Virus record (IMG/VR): IMGVR_UViG_3300018083_000057 | Span: 1-43,118 of that record | Reading direction: 5' to 3' (one strand) | DNA length: 43,118 bases | Origin: a virus | Translations under genes and position numbers: made by a program | Shown: in pieces, positions 1 to 43,118 of the stretch | Position numbering within the stretch: the first letter of the stretch is position 1 | Layout: each line of letters starts with the position of its first letter | The notes under the pieces: model-generated | What the model was told of the DNA's origin: nothing | Databases searched by the model: none | Seen by the model: the letters and a program-made list of their open reading frames with translations, nothing else

Positions 1-18
1 GCACCGACGAGGCTCGCA
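1..18. repeat. Terminal direct repeat (matches 43101-43118)
   Basis: The first 18 bases are identical to the last 18 of the window. The match lies inside the 15-bp tandem array found at both ends, so on its own it could be chance. It keeps the minus-strand pentapeptide reading frame open when the ends are merged. Together with the split gene, this supports a circular or circularly permuted molecule cut inside the array. Confidence 0.6.
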
Positions 19-356
19 CCGTCGAGGCTCGCACCGTCGAGGCTCGCACCGTCGAGGCTCGCACGGTCGAGGCGCGCACCGACGAGGCGCGCACCGACGA
101 GGCTCGCACGGTCGAGGCGCGCACCGACGAGGCGCGCACCGACGAGGCTCGCACCGTCGAGGCTCGCACCGTCGAGGCTCGCACCGACGAGGCTCGCACG
201 GTCGAGGCTCGCACCGACGAGGCGCGCACCGACGAGGCTCGCACCGTCGAGGCTCGCACCGGATCTGACGGCGTCCTCGAGCGCCGCAACCGTACTAGTC
301 GCGCTCTCGCTCCTGAACAAAACTGCTTTCGTGTAGCGGTGGACAATCTCGATCAT
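1..356 (-). CDS. Pentapeptide-repeat protein, N-terminal part (continues at 43118)
   Basis: The gene starts at ATG 356-354, overlapping the integrase stop in an ATGA, so it is probably translationally coupled to the integrase. The first 33 residues ([14 protein letters not shown]...) resemble the N-terminal cap of phage pentapeptide-repeat proteins, and 17 pentapeptides follow up to the window edge. The frame continues at 43118 and ends at 42596. If the ends are joined over 18 bases the protein has about 286 residues: a 33-residue cap, 28 pentapeptides (about seven coils) and a 113-residue C-terminal domain. Some family members mimic DNA and bind gyrase (MfpA, Qnr). The role of the phage forms is not known, and the copy number across the junction may be an assembly estimate. 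Confidence 0.85.
3..257 (-). repeat. 15-bp tandem repeats coding for pentapeptides, left part (17 units)
   Basis: Seventeen exact 15-bp units occupy this stretch. Read on the minus strand each codes A-[S/R]-L-[D/V]-[G/R]. Only three bases vary between units: S or R at codon 2, D or V at codon 4, G or R at codon 5. The seen types are [20 protein letters not shown] and ARLVG here, plus ARLDG in the right part. All changes are substitutions and no indel breaks the frame. The pattern fits the A(D/N)LXX pentapeptide-repeat family, which folds as a right-handed quadrilateral beta-helix. Confidence 0.95.
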
Positions 357-4892: not shown

Positions 4893-5852
4893 ATGGATCC
4901 CGGAAACGCCGCCATCGTAAGGTCTGAAGTCAACACCACCGCGATCGCTCGCGTCGAAGGCCTCGACACCGAAGTCGTCGTCGCACGCGTCGACAAGATC
5001 AAGGACATAGCGAAACGCGTGATGCAGGAGGGGCATCACTTCGGAAAGATCCCCGGCGTCGACAAGCCGAGCCTCTTGAAGCCGGGCGCCGAGGTGCTGT
5101 GCCTCACGTTCCAGCTCGCGCCGAAGTTCAAGCTGAAGGAAAAGCGCCAAGGCGCGCACCTCGAAGTCATCGCCGAGTGCACGCTCGTCCACGTGCCGTC
5201 TGGCGCGGTGCTCGGCTCCGCGATCGGTTCGTGCTCGACGCTGGAAGCAAAGTACGCCTACCGCAACGCGAAGCGGGTCTGCCCCGAGTGCAACGAGCCC
5301 GCGATCATCAAGGGCCGCGAGCAGTACGGCGGCGGCTGGATCTGTTGGAAGAAGCCCGAGAAGGGCAGCAACGGCTGCGGCGCGAAGTTCAAGGACGGCG
5401 ACCAGGAGATCGAGAGCCAGGCCGTCGGGCGCATCGAGAACCCCGACATCGCCGACACGTACAACACCGTGCGGAAGATGGCGTCGAAGCGCGCGCTCGT
5501 CGCCATCGTGCTGCTCGTGACGTGCGCCTCCGACATCTTCACCCAGGATGTCGAAGAGCAAGGGCGCACCGACGACGACGGCCAGAAGCCGGGAAGCGAC
5601 ACGTCGGGCCCGATTGCAGGGACGACGACGAAGCCCGTCGTCGTCGCGACGTCGAAGGACGTCGACACCGTGCTCGAGCTCATCCGCGGCGCGCAGACGA
5701 TCCCGCAGCTCGACGGCATCATCAAGTCGAACAAGGGCCGCAAGTGGAGCCGCTCGCAGGTCGCGACGCTGAACACCGCGGACACCGAGCGCCGCGCTGA
5801 GCTCGTCGAGGCCGGCGCCTACGCCGAACGCGACTACGGAGGTGGCGCGTGA
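4893..5852 (+). CDS. Probable single-strand annealing protein (Sak/Rad52-like) with zinc ribbon
   Basis: The 319-residue protein probably pairs complementary single DNA strands in phage recombination. Residues 1-130 form the first part of the fold (IAKRVMQEGHHFGKIPG, VLCLTFQLAPKFKLKEK). A zinc ribbon follows with C130, C133, C151 and C162. The segment IADTYNTVRKMASKRALVAI ... CASDIFTQDVEE (residues 186-222) is what I recall from Sak-type phage recombinases. The C-terminal region after 225 is an acidic linker plus a small helical domain. The next gene is a RecB-like exonuclease, the usual partner. The family name is recalled, not searched. Confidence 0.65.
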   Translation: MDPGNAAIVRSEVNTTAIARVEGLDTEVVVARVDKIKDIAKRVMQEGHHFGKIPGVDKPSLLKPGAEVLCLTFQLAPKFKLKEKRQGAHLEVIAECTLVHVPSGAVLGSAIGSCSTLEAKYAYRNAKRVCPECNEPAIIKGREQYGGGWICWKKPEKGSNGCGAKFKDGDQEIESQAVGRIENPDIADTYNTVRKMASKRALVAIVLLVTCASDIFTQDVEEQGRTDDDGQKPGSDTSGPIAGTTTKPVVVATSKDVDTVLELIRGAQTIPQLDGIIKSNKGRKWSRSQVATLNTADTERRAELVEAGAYAERDYGGGA

Positions 5853-7283: not shown

Positions 7284-7570
7284 TGGCCATCGGCGACACG
7301 ATTGCCCCGCCGGCGTGCCCGGAGTGCTCGGCGCCGATGGTGCTCGTGCACAACCGTGGCTTCCGCACGCGAGCCCACCCGAACGGAAAGCCCTTCTACG
7401 GCTGCACGCGCTACCCGTCGTGCCGTGGCGCGCACGGCGCTCACGCCGACGGACGTCCGCTCGGAAGGCCCGGAACGCCCGAGGAGCGCGCCGCGCGCGT
7501 CGCCGCGCACGGGTGGTTCGACAAGCTCTGGCAGGGCCGCGTGCGCTCGCGGGACGAAGCCTACGAGTGA
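7283..7570 (+). CDS. Topoisomerase-type zinc-finger protein
   Basis: The 95-residue protein carries one zf-C4 topoisomerase-like finger: CPECSAPMVLVHNRGFR ... PFYGCTRYPSCRG. The C-x2-C ... FxGCxxYPxC pattern is typical of the C-terminal fingers of topoisomerase I and of nuclease-associated proteins. Here it stands alone with a basic C-terminal helix. ATG 7283 (TGATG overlap) is preferred over GTG 7280. A role in binding DNA ends or single strands is an inference. Confidence 0.75.
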   Translation: MAIGDTIAPPACPECSAPMVLVHNRGFRTRAHPNGKPFYGCTRYPSCRGAHGAHADGRPLGRPGTPEERAARVAAHGWFDKLWQGRVRSRDEAYE

Positions 7571-7612
7571 CTCGCCATTACCCTGCCCCACCTCCCCGAT
7601 CACATCGCCGAG

Positions 7613-7708
7613 ATGAGCGCCGCGCAATGCGAGGAGCTCGTCTCGGCCGTGCGCCGGCAACTCGTCACCGACCTCAGCACCCACTTCACCGGGAGACCCG
7701 AAACATGA
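7613..7708 (+). CDS. Very small ORF before parB-like gene
   Basis: A 31-residue frame (MSAAQCEELVSAVRRQLVTD...) ends in an ATGA overlap with the ParB-like gene. It reads as an amphipathic helix with normal codon use. The frame is also open upstream to 7571 (protein-like LAITLPHLPDHIAE) but has no standard start there. It is either a tiny real gene or a translational lead-in for the next one. Confidence 0.45.
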   Translation: MSAAQCEELVSAVRRQLVTDLSTHFTGRPET

Positions 7709-9507
7709 ACGCACCCGCTGCAGCGACCTTTGTCAACGTACCGATCGAGAAGGCTTTCCTCGGCGAGAACTACCGCAAGCGCCGCCCGAAGAACTTCGAC
7801 GCGAAGATCGACGAGCTCGCGGTGAGCATCCGCCAGAAGGGGCTCATCGAGCCGCTCGTGTTCCGTCCGCGGCCGAAGGGGAAGAAGGACGAATTCGAGG
7901 TGGTGTGCGGTGAGCGCCGCTACCTCGGCTCGAAGAAGGCCGGGCTCGCGACGCTCATGGGCACCGTGCGCGACATCTCCGACGACGACGTGCTCGAGCT
8001 GCAGGTCATCGAGAACAACCAGCGCGAGGACCCGCACCCGCTCGACGAGGCCGACGGCTTCGCGCTGCTCGTGAAGCGCGGACGCTCGCCGGGCGAGCTC
8101 GCCGACCGACTCGGCCGCGAGGTGCGCTACGTCCGCGAGCGCCTCGCGCTCTGCACGCTCACCGAGAAGTGCCGGAAGGCGCTCGACGACGAGCAGATCA
8201 CGTTCGGGGTCGCGCTCGTCATCGCGCGCATCCCCCACCCGAAGCTTCAGGACGAAGCTCTCAAGGGTCTCGTTCCGTTCAAGGGCGATCCGCCGATGAC
8301 GGTGAAGGCCGCGGGCGAGGAGATCCGCACGCGCTTCATGCTGAAGCTCGTCGACGCGCCGTTCGACCGGGCCGACGTCGAGCTCGTCACGAAGGCCGGC
8401 GCGTGCACGACGTGCCCTAAGCGGACGGGCAACCAGGCCGAGCTCTTTGGCGACGTCGCGAGCCCGGACGTGTGCACCGATCGGCTCTGCTTCGAGAGCA
8501 AGCTCGACGCGCAGTGGCGCCTCGTGCAGGCGCAGGCGAAACGGGACGGGAAGAAGGTCCTCGCCGAAGGCGAAGCGAAGAAGGTCTGGCCGTACCAGCA
8601 CAACGGCGACCGCGTCGCGCACGACTCGCCCTTCAAGCCGCTCGACGGCGCGTTACCCGCCCCCGGCACCGGCCGGGAGGTCTCGATCCGGGCGCTCCTG
8701 AAGGGCCGCGACTTCGACACCGTCGTCGGGCGGAGCCCGCACTCTGGGCGGTTCTATGAGCTCGTAGCGAAGGGCTCGGTCGATGCCGCCCTTCGCGTGC
8801 GCGCGAAGACGCGTGGCAAAGACGATGTCGGCTCGAGCAAGAAGAAGCCGGGCGCCGCGGAGAAGGCCGAGCGCGCGAGGGCGAAGGCGAAGGTCGAGGC
8901 GAAGGAAGCCATCGACTCGCGCCTGCTCGCCGAGCTCGCCGAGGCGGTCCAAGACGAAGCCAAGGGGTCTCCGTTCCTCGACACGTTCGTCGGCGTGCTG
9001 CTCGAGCCGCTCTTCATGAGCGGCGACGGGCTCCAGCGCGTGCTCCGTAGGCGCGGGCTCCTCGACGAGAAGAAGCGCCTCGCGTACGGAGCAAACATCG
9101 AGCTCGTGAAGAAGCAGGCGAAAGCGCAGGGCATCGAGTGGCTCTGCGGCTTGCTCGTCGAGACCGTCGTCGCCGACGTCATCGACTACGACTACGGCCC
9201 ACGCGACATGAGCACGAGGCGCGCGAACGAGGCTCTCGAGGCCTTCGGCATCGATCGCAAGAAGGTCGAGAAGCAGGTGCTCGCCGAGATCGCGGCGAAC
9301 CGCGCGAAGGAGTCGAAGCCCGCCGCCGGCGTCGTGCACCTGTTCATCGCCGACGGCACGAACGGCACGGCGTGCGGCGGTCGCGCGAGTGGCACCAAAG
9401 GCTCGACGAAGCCCACACTGAAGGGCGTCACCTGCGAGAACTGCAAGCGCGTCGGGCCGGCCGTTCTGCGAGACCGAGCGCCGAAGCGTAAGAGGGGCAA
9501 GCGGTAA
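7705..9507 (+). CDS. ParB-like nuclease/partition-domain protein
   Basis: The 600-residue protein has a ParB/Spo0J N-terminal domain: residues 32-52 (AKIDELAVSIRQKGLIEPLVF), the GERRYLG box at 69-75 and the ENNQREDPHPLDEA box at 103-116. An HTH region follows to about 190. Next comes a cysteine cluster around 232-262 (CTTCPKRTGN ... VCTDRLCF), as in other phage/plasmid ParB-like proteins. A lysine/alanine-rich linker (about 370-410) and a C-terminal domain ending in a CENC zinc pair complete it. No parA is near, so a nuclease, replication or regulatory role fits better than classical partition. Confidence 0.85.
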   Translation: MNAPAAATFVNVPIEKAFLGENYRKRRPKNFDAKIDELAVSIRQKGLIEPLVFRPRPKGKKDEFEVVCGERRYLGSKKAGLATLMGTVRDISDDDVLELQVIENNQREDPHPLDEADGFALLVKRGRSPGELADRLGREVRYVRERLALCTLTEKCRKALDDEQITFGVALVIARIPHPKLQDEALKGLVPFKGDPPMTVKAAGEEIRTRFMLKLVDAPFDRADVELVTKAGACTTCPKRTGNQAELFGDVASPDVCTDRLCFESKLDAQWRLVQAQAKRDGKKVLAEGEAKKVWPYQHNGDRVAHDSPFKPLDGALPAPGTGREVSIRALLKGRDFDTVVGRSPHSGRFYELVAKGSVDAALRVRAKTRGKDDVGSSKKKPGAAEKAERARAKAKVEAKEAIDSRLLAELAEAVQDEAKGSPFLDTFVGVLLEPLFMSGDGLQRVLRRRGLLDEKKRLAYGANIELVKKQAKAQGIEWLCGLLVETVVADVIDYDYGPRDMSTRRANEALEAFGIDRKKVEKQVLAEIAANRAKESKPAAGVVHLFIADGTNGTACGGRASGTKGSTKPTLKGVTCENCKRVGPAVLRDRAPKRKRGKR

Positions 9508-9958: not shown

Positions 9959-10012
9959 GGGGTGCGCCGGCTTGATCGGCGGCGCGGGGGATGGGTCGGG
10001 CGGGGGAGAGGC

Positions 10013-38071: not shown

Positions 38072-38123
38072 CCTATAGAGTCGGCGCAGCGTTTGCTCGA
38101 CGATGCTCGACGATGCTCGACGA
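38072..38123 (-). promoter_or_regulatory. Tandem 10-bp repeats and possible late promoter
   Basis: Three exact copies of TGCTCGACGA (plus strand) stand head to tail at 38094-38123. On the minus strand they are followed after 16 bases by TATAGG (38077-38072), about 43 bases before the first gene of the terminase operon. The array could be an activator or repressor site for late transcription. The -35 match is weak. Confidence 0.45.
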
Positions 38124-39273: not shown

Positions 39274-39723
39274 TCATCGTCTCCTCCCCGGCTGCCGTCG
39301 TTCTCGGTCGGCGTCTCGGGCGAGCTTCTCGGCGGCGGCGAGCGCGTAGCGCACGCGCGTCGAGGTGACCGCGTTGCGCGCGGCCGCGAACTCGACCTCC
39401 GTGAGACGGTCCCCGCTCGTGGCGCGCTTTCCCCACTCGGCGAGCAGCGCGACCTCGGGCTTCACGTCGCGCACGAGCTCGTCCACGGCGCGGCGCACGT
39501 CGTCGCCCCACTCGCCGTCGAGGGCGCGCGCGACGAGGGTGGCGAGGTCGCACGCCCTTGTCGCCTCGCGGCGCCACTCGGCTTTCTCGCGCTCTCGCGC
39601 GGCCTCCTCGCGCTCGTCCTCGGTCGGGTACGCGATGTCGACGAACTCCTGCCACGCCTGGCGCAGGTCGGACGGGAGCTGCTCACCGCGCTTCTGCAGG
39701 TCCTCTGGGATGTCTCTACGCAT
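39274..39723 (-). CDS. Helical protein next to the replication initiator
   Basis: The 149-residue protein starts at ATG 39723 with an 8-base overlap (ATGCGTAG) with the replication gene. It is nearly all helix and highly charged (YPTEDEREEAAREREKAEWRREATRACDL, VRYALAAAEKLARDADRERRQ). Its place behind the initiator would suit a helicase loader or accessory factor, but it lacks a Walker motif and no family is recognised. Confidence 0.65.
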   Translation of the reverse strand: MRRDIPEDLQKRGEQLPSDLRQAWQEFVDIAYPTEDEREEAAREREKAEWRREATRACDLATLVARALDGEWGDDVRRAVDELVRDVKPEVALLAEWGKRATSGDRLTEVEFAAARNAVTSTRVRYALAAAEKLARDADRERRQPGRRR

Positions 39724-40825
39724 CGCCACCACCTCCGGCCGCAAAGCGTGCGAGCGAGGCGCTGAGCGGCTGCGGCGCGCCGCCCCTGTCGTCCTCGGCG
39801 CCGGCGCGCGCTAGCCTCACCAGGCCCGCGACGCGCGTGTCGCCGTCTTGGAGCTCGTTCAGAGCAATCGCGACGACGTTCGGGGTCATGATCGCCGCGG
39901 TCGCCTTGTTCTGGAACTTCTCGGTCGTCGGCAGGTACTTCGCGACGCGCACGAGGTCGCTCGGGAGGTAGCCGAGGGCCGTCACGAGCAGCACGGCGCG
40001 CACGTCGGCGGCCTCGCTCGGCCGTCCGATCCGGGGGCTGCCCTCGCGCTTCTTGGCTTCGTGGAACGCTTTGAGCACTCGGACGACGAACGGAAACCGC
40101 TGCGCCTCGAGCCGGTCAGCGAGCGCCTCGTCGCGGCAGAGCTCCGCGACGGCCGCCGCGCCGTCCTCCTGAATTGCTTCGAGCGCTTGCTCGTGATTTT
40201 CTATCACCGCCGCCGCCGTCGCTGGCACGGGTTCGGCGGCCGTCGACGTGTCAGGTTCTTTAGCGGCGACGTCAGAAGTTAATTGGTTGGGCTGGGCTGG
40301 GCTGGGGACGCGGGCGGGCCCGCCCGCGGGGGGACGCGTTCTAGAACCGTTCCGCGGGGCGTTCCGGAACGCGTTCGGAACAGGTTCGGGAACGCGTTCC
40401 GCGACGCGTTCCGGAATGCGTTCCGTCCCTGGCTCGGAACGCGTTCCGTCCGCGTTCCGGGCGAGCCATCGATCCTTGCGCTCCTTCGCCTTGCGCCGGC
40501 GCTCCTCTACCTCCTTCGAGCTCGTCGCGTGGTCGAGGTAATCGTGAAGCTGCCAGCCATGCTGGACGGGATCCACGAGGCCGGCGCCGCGGGAGCCGTC
40601 GCGGTTCTTGCGGCCGCACTCGACGAGCGCCTGCAAAGCCTTCCTCGGGCTCTTGGGCGCTCCTGGTACGCGGTCCACGTCGTCGTCGGCGATGAAGCCG
40701 TCCGTAGGGTTACTCGCAGCGTATCCCTTCAGCGCGAGCCACATGACGATCGCGTCGCTGCCGCCGAGCTCGACGGCGCGCTTCCACTTCGGCGAGTCGA
40801 GGAATTCTTCCTTCACCGTAATCAT
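39716..40825 (-). CDS. Phage replication initiator (replisome-organiser-like)
   Basis: The 369-residue protein starts at ATG 40825 (ATGA overlap). Residues 1-105 form an N-terminal winged-helix-like domain: DAIVMWLALKGYAASNPTDG, then PKSPRKALQALVECG and GLVDPVQHGWQLHDYLDH, as in phage replication proteins. Residues 123-163 are a low-complexity R/E/P/N linker encoded by a 12-bp iteron array. An acidic linker and a helical C-terminal domain (about 225-369, LCRDEALADRLEAQRFPFVVR, then NKATAAIMTPNVVAIALNELQ) complete it. The layout of binding domain, origin inside the gene and C-terminal partner domain is that of lambda O. Confidence 0.75.
   Translation of the reverse strand: MITVKEEFLDSPKWKRAVELGGSDAIVMWLALKGYAASNPTDGFIADDDVDRVPGAPKSPRKALQALVECGRKNRDGSRGAGLVDPVQHGWQLHDYLDHATSSKEVEERRRKAKERKDRWLARNADGTRSEPGTERIPERVAERVPEPVPNAFRNAPRNGSRTRPPAGGPARVPSPAQPNQLTSDVAAKEPDTSTAAEPVPATAAAVIENHEQALEAIQEDGAAAVAELCRDEALADRLEAQRFPFVVRVLKAFHEAKKREGSPRIGRPSEAADVRAVLLVTALGYLPSDLVRVAKYLPTTEKFQNKATAAIMTPNVVAIALNELQDGDTRVAGLVRLARAGAEDDRGGAPQPLSASLARFAAGGGGDA
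40310..40327. repeat. Perfect 18-bp GC palindrome beside the iterons
   Basis: GCGGGCGGG and its exact inverse meet without a loop. On its left side lie GGGCT repeats (40288-40306) and a short AT-rich stretch (GAAGTTAATTGG, 40275-40286). All of this is within the replication gene. Confidence 0.85.
40337..40458 (-). repeat. Iteron-like 12-bp tandem array, candidate origin of replication
   Basis: The word CGTTCC (minus strand GGAACG) recurs with 11-12 bp spacing. Exact copies start at 40348, 40360, 40395, 40407, 40419, 40442 and 40453; degenerate copies at 40337, 40372, 40383 and 40431 fill the gaps. Several units form the palindrome GGAACGCGTTCC. The 11-unit array lies inside the replication initiator gene, as the lambda ori lies inside gene O. 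Confidence 0.75.
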
Positions 40826-40995: not shown

Positions 40996-41191
40996 CGTCT
41001 GGCTCCGATTCGGCTGTATCGGCGATGGTGGCCAGACTCGCCGACCACAAGCGCGCCTGCGCCGGCGTGAGCTCGAGCGTCCGGCCACCGCGGAGCTCGA
41101 CGAGCACGAGGCCCTTGCTGGCGAAGATGAAGACGCCGCTCGCCCGCGTGCGCCTCCAGCGCTGCTCGTCGAGCTGTACAACGTTGCTCAC
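40988..41191 (-). CDS. Small beta-rich protein, unknown
   Basis: The 67-residue protein starts at GTG 41191 in a GTGA overlap with the RuvC-like gene. It has strands (SGVFIFASKGLVLVELRGGRTLEL) and one helix (TPAQARLWSASLATIADTA), which recalls small phage proteins that bind DNA or another protein. No name can be given. Confidence 0.65.
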   Translation of the reverse strand: MSNVVQLDEQRWRRTRASGVFIFASKGLVLVELRGGRTLELTPAQARLWSASLATIADTAESEPDDA

Positions 41192-41733
41192 GCGGCCTCC
41201 GGGGCGACCGAGACGAACGCCTCGCCGGCATCACAGAGCGCGGCGTTCGCGACGATGAAGGCGTCGAGCTCGGCCTCGAACCACGCGTCGGGATCCGGGA
41301 GCACCGCGAGCAGGAGCTCTTGCGCCGCGTCGCCGGCGCCGCGGCCACCCGAAAGCGCGGAGCCCATGAACACCGTGCGCGCGTGGCGCTGTTCAATCTG
41401 CTCGAGCTCGATGCCGATGCAGACGTCGAGCTCGTGCTCGAGCACGCCGACGAGCCGCTCCTGCGAGCGGATCGTCTCGGACTTGCCGCGCATGAAGATG
41501 CCTCCCTCGGCGAAGACGCGCACGCTCGTCATCGGCAGGCCCTCCGAGGCGGCCGCCCAGGTGAGCCACTGAATCAGGTCGCGCGCGAGCGACGCGCGGC
41601 GGTGCACGACGGACGCGCCGGGCTTTGTGCCGAGGGTCGCCCGGCGCACGCGCCGAAAGTCGTTGCCCCACCCCGTCGGCACCGCGGCGATGCCGAAAGC
41701 GGTGAGGCTGTGGTCGAGTCCGACGTAGAGCAC
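41188..41733 (-). CDS. RuvC-like Holliday junction resolvase
   Basis: The 181-residue protein has the RuvC/RNase H-type catalytic acids in order: D7 (YVGLDHSLTAFGIAAV), E76 (VRVFAEGGIF) and D157 (ELDAFIVANAAL). Helix RASLARDLIQWLTWAA fits the fold. It should resolve branched DNA before packaging or after recombination. GTG 41733 follows two bases after the clamp-like gene. The usual two-acid C-terminal pair is represented by E155 and D157. Confidence 0.8.
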   Translation of the reverse strand: MLYVGLDHSLTAFGIAAVPTGWGNDFRRVRRATLGTKPGASVVHRRASLARDLIQWLTWAAASEGLPMTSVRVFAEGGIFMRGKSETIRSQERLVGVLEHELDVCIGIELEQIEQRHARTVFMGSALSGGRGAGDAAQELLLAVLPDPDAWFEAELDAFIVANAALCDAGEAFVSVAPEAA

Positions 41734-42595: not shown

Positions 42596-43118
42596 TCACG
42601 CGACACCTCCCGTCTGCTCGGCGCTCGCGGGCGTTTGAGCAGCGCGCGCCTGCCACTCGAGGATCCACCCATCGACGATCTTCGCGACCTGGCTGTTCTC
42701 CGGTGTGTCACCCGGCGAGATCGCCAAGAACCAGCATTCGGCGGGCCTCGTCGAGTCCGGCTTCAACCCCGGAACATCCTGGTAGCTGCAGCCCTTGGCG
42801 TTCGCGATTGTGCCGACCAGGCATGCGCACGCTCCCTCGTACGCTGTCCCGTCGACCTTGCCGGCCCGCAGCGCGTCCCGGAGCGCCGGCACCTCGTGCG
42901 GCACGGCGTCCAAGACCGCGAAGAAGTCGTCCCGGATCGCGTCGAGGCTCGCACGGTCGAGGCGCGCACCGACGAGGCTCGCACGGTCGAGGCGCGCACC
43001 GTCGAGGCGCGCACCGTCGAGGCTCGCACCGTCGAGGCTCGCACGGTCGAGGCGCGCACCGACGAGGCGCGCACCGACGAGGCTCGCACGGTCGAGGCTC
43101 GCACCGACGAGGCTCGCA
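42596..43118 (-). CDS. Pentapeptide-repeat protein, C-terminal part (continues from position 1)
   Basis: The frame enters at 43118 in the same phase as the array at 3-257, runs through 12 more pentapeptides (the last is ASLDA, 42938-42952) and then a 113-residue domain. That domain starts IRDDFFAVLDAVPHEVPALR and contains VDGTAYEGACACLVGTIANA, KGCSYQDVPGL and PAECWFLAISPGDTPENSQ. This cysteine-containing end domain follows pentapeptide repeats in other phage proteins as I recall. The stop is two bases before the clamp-like gene. See 1-356 for the N-terminus. Confidence 0.85.
   Translation of the reverse strand, partial: ASLVGASLDRASLVGARLVGARLDRASLDGASLDGARLDGARLDRASLVGARLDRASLDAIRDDFFAVLDAVPHEVPALRDALRAGKVDGTAYEGACACLVGTIANAKGCSYQDVPGLKPDSTRPAECWFLAISPGDTPENSQVAKIVDGWILEWQARAAQTPASAEQTGGVA
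42938..43117 (-). repeat. 15-bp tandem repeats coding for pentapeptides, right part (12 units)
   Basis: Twelve 15-bp units of the same kind as at 3-257. The order of unit types differs from the left part except for the shared end unit, so this is not simply a copy of the left array. The first unit in plus-strand order (42938-42952) is diverged and codes ASLDA. Confidence 0.95.

Follow-up and report, generated by a model that had tools for sequence, protein, structure and literature searches.

We describe a candidate replication origin of a phage that is located inside the gene for the phage's own initiator protein, to which that protein would bind. From the sequence evidence presented below, we estimate the probability of this reading at about 0.8. 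The arrangement is common to hundreds of related phages. The best reading of the region is a self-contained origin cassette, which has a strand-asymmetric array of C/G tracts at the place where lambda has an AT-rich tract.

The phage and its initiator gene

The window, that is, the whole stretch of DNA that was analysed, is a phage record of 43,118 bases. It contains genes for an integrase, a Mu-type portal, a terminase, a tail sheath, baseplate parts, an exonuclease, a ParB-like protein and a RuvC-like resolvase. This gene set suggests a temperate myophage. The ParB-like gene is located at 7315-9507 on the plus strand; the phage has it in addition to its integrase. Both ends of the window (1-261 and 42940-43118) lie in one 15-bp tandem repeat of the GCACCGTCGAGGCTC type, which suggests either that the genome is circular or terminally redundant or that the assembly was broken in the repeat. 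In addition, a perfect triple tandem of the 10-bp unit TGCTCGACGA is found at 38094-38123. The features relevant to the origin are as follows.

39716..40825, minus strand: replication initiator gene, 369 aa, ATG at 40825; matches phrog_2447 (E=3.9e-17) and phrog_3926 (E=9.5e-12)
40526..40825, minus strand: N-terminal winged-helix domain, aa 1-100; AlphaFold2 mean pLDDT 93; BFVD matches are predicted phage replisome organizers
40463..40483, minus strand: ERKDRWL, aa 115-121, specificity-helix motif within the long helix aa 103-129; helical in the model and at the peak of the sliding-window prediction
40331..40458, unstranded: iteron array, 11 exact GGAAC/GTTCC and 7 one-mismatch half-sites, phased at about 11-12 bp
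40436..40447, unstranded: perfect palindromic iteron GGAACGCGTTCC
40389..40400, unstranded: perfect palindromic iteron GGAACGCGTTCC
40309..40328, unstranded: 20-bp perfect GC palindrome between the iterons and the G-tract array
40289..40307, plus strand: G-tract array GGGCTGGGCTGGGCTGGGG, with C tracts on the coding strand; conserved element that fits a quadruplex-capable pattern
40268..40288, unstranded: AT-rich segment directly behind the tract array, candidate unwinding region
41188..41733, minus strand: RuvC-like Holliday-junction resolvase gene, in the replication neighbourhood

Thus, in the direction of the gene, the N-terminal domain is followed by the iterons (40458-40331), the GC palindrome (40328-40309), the G tracts (40307-40289), the AT-rich segment (about 40289-40268) and then the C-terminal part.

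The match to phrog_2447, annotated as 'replication initiation protein', covers the N-terminal domain, and the same family is matched by all 69 of the 69 aligned relatives. AlphaFold2 predicts one long helix (aa 103-129) after the winged helix (mean pLDDT 93), and in the BFVD comparison the predicted fold resembles 'replisome organizers' of Siphoviridae. The Phage_rep_org_N profile (PF09681) gave 0 families for the window and weak matches in 6/69 relatives (best E=0.0045). A profile search of the PDB with the window protein found no relative, and fold comparison with the PDB returned only generic winged-helix matches (Z at most 6.4). Most of these matches stop near residue 100, leaving the long basic helix without a template, which does not prove that the fold is new.

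Relatives of the initiator

The set of relatives consists of 214 loci, including phage records and prophages; removing redundancy at 75% identity leaves 122. The search proceeded from the window protein to locus L003 and its N-terminal domain, then to a profile of actinophage homologues, and from there to many more loci. The nearest relatives found (L003, L123 and L125) are 55-59% identical to the window protein in the domain. With the window protein itself, BLAST against cultured phages gave no match even at E=10, and the first scan of genome contigs gave none. When family members were used as queries against cultured phages, 446 records matched in one search and 489 in another, most of them actinobacteriophages; the prophage contigs and cultured phages that matched come from Actinomycetota.

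Three features recur among the 214 relatives: iteron arrays behind the winged helix, a tract array, and then an AT-rich segment, with a hairpin in part of the loci. In cultured relatives the initiator gene adjoins DnaB or a helicase loader; for example, it lies beside a DnaB-like helicase gene in MrSmee and beside 'loader and inhibitor of phage' in prophiT36-2a. Two divergent members, L280 and L282 (Henry and Winky), also lie beside DnaB and have no basic helix, no iterons and no four-tract array; they form a natural contrast set.

The iteron array

A repeat array inside the initiator gene had been noticed from the window sequence, and it proved to be real and the only such cluster in the phage. 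Exact GGAAC half-sites start at 40366, 40377, 40389 and 40436, and exact GTTCC half-sites at 40349, 40361, 40396, 40408, 40420, 40443 and 40454; seven one-mismatch half-sites lie nearby, from 40331. The earlier note had counted eleven units at 40337-40458: the number stands, but the exact half-sites begin at 40349. The palindromic form that it described was also found, as the two perfect GGAACGCGTTCC units at 40389 and 40436, and, as described there, the array occupies the middle of the gene, behind the winged helix, and codes for the linker. The usual distance between neighbouring half-sites of the same orientation is 11 or 12 bp.

The whole phage contains 104 GGAAC/GTTCC half-sites, and no other 130-bp stretch has more than 3 of them, compared with 11 within 110 bp here. 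When the gene's own codons were shuffled synonymously (5000 shuffles), the mean number was 2.9 and the maximum 9, so the 11 observed do not come from chance or codon usage. Moreover, the half-sites are present in both orientations, which a repeated peptide would not yield. A DNA pattern search of viral contigs for paired GGAACGCGTTCC found none.

Among the relatives, there are at least eight interchangeable classes of half-site (GTGAC, GTTCG, GAAGC, GTAAC, CGATC, GGGAC, GGAAC and ATGGC). The phasing of one helical turn proposed for the window is general in this set, since in all eight the same-orientation distance seen most often is 11 or 12 bp. The earlier note had also asked whether relatives would keep the linker while scrambling the iterons; this was not seen, as linker and iterons both vary between relatives. 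In one locus, L126, a long repeat insertion (about 5180-5450) in the coding region of the initiator domain precedes GGGACTCCC-type iterons and a CCGAGA tandem.

The tract array

The GGGCT repeats that had been mentioned as a flanking detail of the array are indeed present (GGGCTGGGCTGGGCTGGGG), but they turn out to represent a conserved element rather than a detail. We counted runs of at least four CCC tracts in which no spacer was longer than 3 nt (spacing 2-3 nt). Such an array lies on the coding strand directly behind the iterons in 93/122 loci and on the other strand in 0/122, and it occurs in 4/379 flanking 500-bp windows. The units include CCCGA, CCCGT, CCCAA, CCCAT, CCCAGT and CCCGTA, among others.

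The tract array is under selection as DNA, judging from three properties of these sequences. First, the summed number of tracts is 273, versus 140 +/- 8 after synonymous shuffling. Second, arginine codons are biased: within the array CGA accounts for 59% and CGC for 1.6%, compared with 12% and 40% in the rest of these genes, and 92% of the arginines in the array are encoded by CGA or CGT, with CGC the commonest codon outside. Third, in 8 loci the array lies beyond the stop codon.

The array may fold as a G-quadruplex that holds the strands apart, or it may serve as a tandem single-strand target for the initiator or the helicase machinery. The more specific proposal, that the G-strand array itself is a quadruplex that drives strand opening, seems possible to us, although we lean against it. 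Tract length is 3 in 247/296 tracts, the loops of 2-3 nt vary in sequence, strand polarity is strict, and the window array fits the sequence pattern of a G-quadruplex motif with four GGG tracts and short loops. However, a few independent lineages have CC-only arrays (CCAAGA, CCAAA, CCGAGA), so that a three-layer quadruplex cannot be needed everywhere; a strict quadruplex requirement, considered before these arrays were found, was weakened accordingly. The uniform period within each array is, in addition, also explained by slippage or by a repeat-binding protein. Two more quadruplex-type G-tract motifs lie on the plus strand of the window at 9986 and 37367, away from the initiator gene.

The AT-rich segment, hairpin and palindrome

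The short AT-rich stretch reported earlier was recovered at about 40270-40289, with 60% AT in a genome of 70% GC; the GC-rich tract array stands between it and the iterons. In the relatives, the 30 nt behind the tract array are 50% AT, versus 34% for the whole stretch. Within 40 nt behind the array, 41% of loci have a perfect hairpin with a stem of at least 7 bp, versus 0.9% of control windows. The stems of at least 6 bp differ in sequence in 42 of 42 cases, and most share the loop TAAA, TAAC or TGAC. The window has no perfect hairpin behind its tract array, and its GC palindrome is on the other side of the array. That palindrome had been given as 18 bp; it is perfect, as claimed, but 20 bp long (40309-40328). 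Its run GCGGGCGGGC also occurs at the same place in L123 and L125.

It may be argued that the tract array and hairpin act as RNA, for example as a Rho loading site, an attenuator or a translation signal, and that only the iterons take part in replication. Indeed, RNA of the coding strand would be C-rich and G-poor here, and the TNAC/TAAA hairpin loops can be read as UNAC-like RNA loops. However, most arrays are located mid-gene with translation continuing through them, no U run follows the hairpins, and the place of the element behind the iterons is fixed, whichever downstream domain comes after it. We therefore regard this explanation as unlikely.

Correspondence between the basic helix and the iterons

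Half-site pattern, phasing and the matching basic helix vary together between relatives. To assign classes, half-sites were counted in the DNA alone, and only downstream of the helix coding region, and 147/213 loci were assigned. A k-mer test alone was significant for 36/77 relatives, a low yield because many arrays are short and degenerate.

Over all loci, with close relatives excluded, the class was predicted correctly in 79% from about 20 residues directly behind the winged helix, versus 18% from the winged-helix domain. On 85 non-redundant loci, with only comparisons below 50% identity admitted, the nearest neighbour gave the correct class in 82% by the helix and 25% by the winged helix (permuted labels: 18% on average, 31% at most). 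When only the five classes with an RxxxxR-type helix were considered, the corresponding values were 85% versus 34%, with 31% after permutation. A sliding window showed a sharp peak of 0.75-0.76 at W+14..W+33 and values of 0.10-0.26 across the winged helix. The partial correlation with the iterons was 0.57 for the helix given the winged helix, and 0.02 for the reverse. Among 58 held-out loci, to which the rule had given no class, the predicted half-site was the most frequent one, ties counted, in 71%, versus 32% after permutation.

Close relatives with different helices have different iterons: ERKDRWL goes with GGAAC in the window, ERKAAYR with GGGAC in L003, and VRQQTHR with GTGAC in L123. Similarly, L119 and L230 are 88% identical in the domain and have an RM-type helix with GTTCG iterons and an RQ-type helix with GTGAC iterons, respectively. 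A further observation concerns L104, where a second GTGAC/GTCAC array, phased at 12 bp and of the same class as the main array, lies at gene nt 175-209, in a loop inserted within the winged-helix coding region.

The class of the window, GGAAC, is also found in Arthrobacter phages and has only these two non-redundant members. By eye their helices are alike (ERKDRWL in the window and ERKAKFL in Arthrobacter phages; pattern ERK..[FW][LQI]), but the nearest neighbour assigned automatically to the window helix comes from a GGGAC phage, which we counted against our reading. Twelve cultured phages were newly fetched. The nearest-neighbour rule was correct for AxeJC, Jinkies, MrSmee and Zipp; Dewey and prophiT36-2a were correct by the motif rule only; class prediction failed for Rabbs and Brusacoram; Piper2020 was not scorable; and Henry and Winky, without helix or arrays, complete the twelve, so that the outcome as a whole was mixed. 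The result was mixed for Finkle, a Gordonia phage (L287) in which GTGAC and GGGAC half-sites are mixed in one gene, across a long linker.

We read this covariation as evidence that the basic helix contacts the half-sites, and the target half-site would usually be predictable from this one short helix. Because a span of about 150 bp takes in both helix and iterons, part of the association may reflect inheritance as a block. Block inheritance alone, however, would not explain why the same pairing of helix and iteron recurs in distant proteins.

The covariation demonstrates matching, not replication, and therefore also suits a model in which the half-sites are operators for repression of the protein's own operon or for copy-number control, with replication starting elsewhere. 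Initiators often autoregulate, which counts for this model. On the other hand, the arrays lie deep in the gene and not at a promoter, the conserved tracts, AT-rich segment and hairpin come after them, and in relatives helicase genes are found next to the initiator gene. Weighing these points, we find the operator model quite improbable.

An explanation of the repeats from the protein, as a side effect of a repetitive R/E/P/N linker and a proline-rich one, is already contradicted, and we give it very little weight. The arrays are translated, and the tract array yields the recurrent peptide PTRPDPTRPDP; nevertheless, a peptide origin does not account for half-sites in both orientations, the failure of the synonymous null, the use of rare arginine codons, or the tract arrays past the stop codon, where iterons of the Arthrobacter phage loci are also found. 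A role of the array in partition, as a parS-like site, or in packaging is equally hard to believe: a parS site can consist of direct repeats in an array (PMC7157519) and the window has a ParB-like gene, but that gene is on the other genome arm, the class of the array matches the initiator helix across phages, and the terminase gene is about 3 kb off and does not adjoin the array.

Proposed mechanism of the candidate origin

If the region is an origin inside the initiator gene, as we propose, the N-terminal winged helix and the long basic helix would act together, with the basic helix reading a 5-bp half-site, GGAAC in this phage. At least 11 copies of the half-site follow a short way downstream within the gene, roughly one to each helical turn, and with this spacing several protomers could stack along one face of the DNA and perhaps wrap it. 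The resulting initiator complex would strain and open the adjoining CCC/GGG tract array and AT-rich stretch, and the helicase and its loader would be recruited to the opened segment, which in many relatives is followed by the hairpin. Stacking and opening are proposed by analogy with lambda and SPP1, where the initiator binds repeats in its own gene and an adjacent segment opens. What the sequence itself establishes is the array, the fact that it is unique in the phage, its conservation as DNA and the covariation between helix and iterons; binding by the protein, wrapping, opening of the strands, loading of the helicase and activity as an origin are inferred from these.

Among the points against the origin reading is that GC skew does not mark the array. 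A change in GC skew at about 40.3 kb had been expected, but the cumulative curve is highest at 37.5 kb and lowest at 8.5 kb. Hence there is no classical minimum at the array, and this candidate signature was rejected. We found no published binding or replication experiment on any member of the family.

Comparison with known origins

In lambda, the iterons stand in the middle of the initiator gene O, and behind them come a strand-asymmetric tract and DNA rich in AT (PMC7466680). The candidate origin in the window has its parts in the same order, and in the DNA of lambda, too, the iterons and an A/G tract are followed by a 10-bp hairpin. However, lambda iterons are 18 bp long and spaced at about 20-24 bp, as opposed to 5-bp half-sites phased at 11-12 bp, and the lambda tract is A/G-rich without a CCC array, in contrast to the regular GC-rich tracts beside the iterons of the window. 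The proteins differ as well: O belongs to Phage_rep_O (PF04492), which lambda O matches, and the window protein has no Pfam match; homology between the two was not detectable by hhalign (probability 0.2%). The suggestion of a lambda-O-like origin therefore holds for the order of parts, iterons and then an asymmetric tract, but not for relatedness to O.

In SPP1, the replisome organizer G38P binds direct repeats of oriL in its own gene 38, beside an AT-rich unwinding element (PMC6316719). Repeats in the initiator gene next to an AT-rich element are thus common to SPP1 and the window, although the host group and the repeats are different; we found no report of a C/G-tract array or of a helix-iteron code in SPP1. 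For the extrachromosomal mycobacteriophages Miko and Jeeves, the authors expect the RepA origin to be probably within or beside repA and report no repeats (PMC7157519); the expected location in or beside the initiator gene is the likeness to the present case.

The actinobacteriophage proteins in phrog_2447 and phrog_3926 are direct homologues and share the order of winged helix, basic helix, iterons and tract array. Their annotations carry no origin, and in the literature searched we found no description of the arrays inside these genes and no mapped origin for cultured phages of the family.

Significance

An origin inside an initiator gene is already known. The correspondence between helix and iterons, the conserved tract array and the hairpin of this initiator class were not found in the literature searched, and no prior description of quadruplexes or iterons in mycobacteriophages was found in that search, which most subscription papers fell outside. 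We put forward, as a tentative and rather doubtful generalization, that these phages represent a widespread class of origin in phages of GC-rich hosts. Such an origin would open its DNA beside an array that forms a G-quadruplex, rather than beside a simple AT-rich element, would use a readable code from a short basic helix to 5-bp half-sites a few codons downstream, and would change its specificity by exchanging one short segment.

In practice, the arrays place a candidate origin inside one named gene. The rule described here usually gives the target from the short helix, and two more conserved DNA elements, the tract array and the hairpin, have been pointed out. Predicted origins of this kind would aid the building of replicons for GC-rich hosts, and they would show how closely related phages switch their replication specificity.
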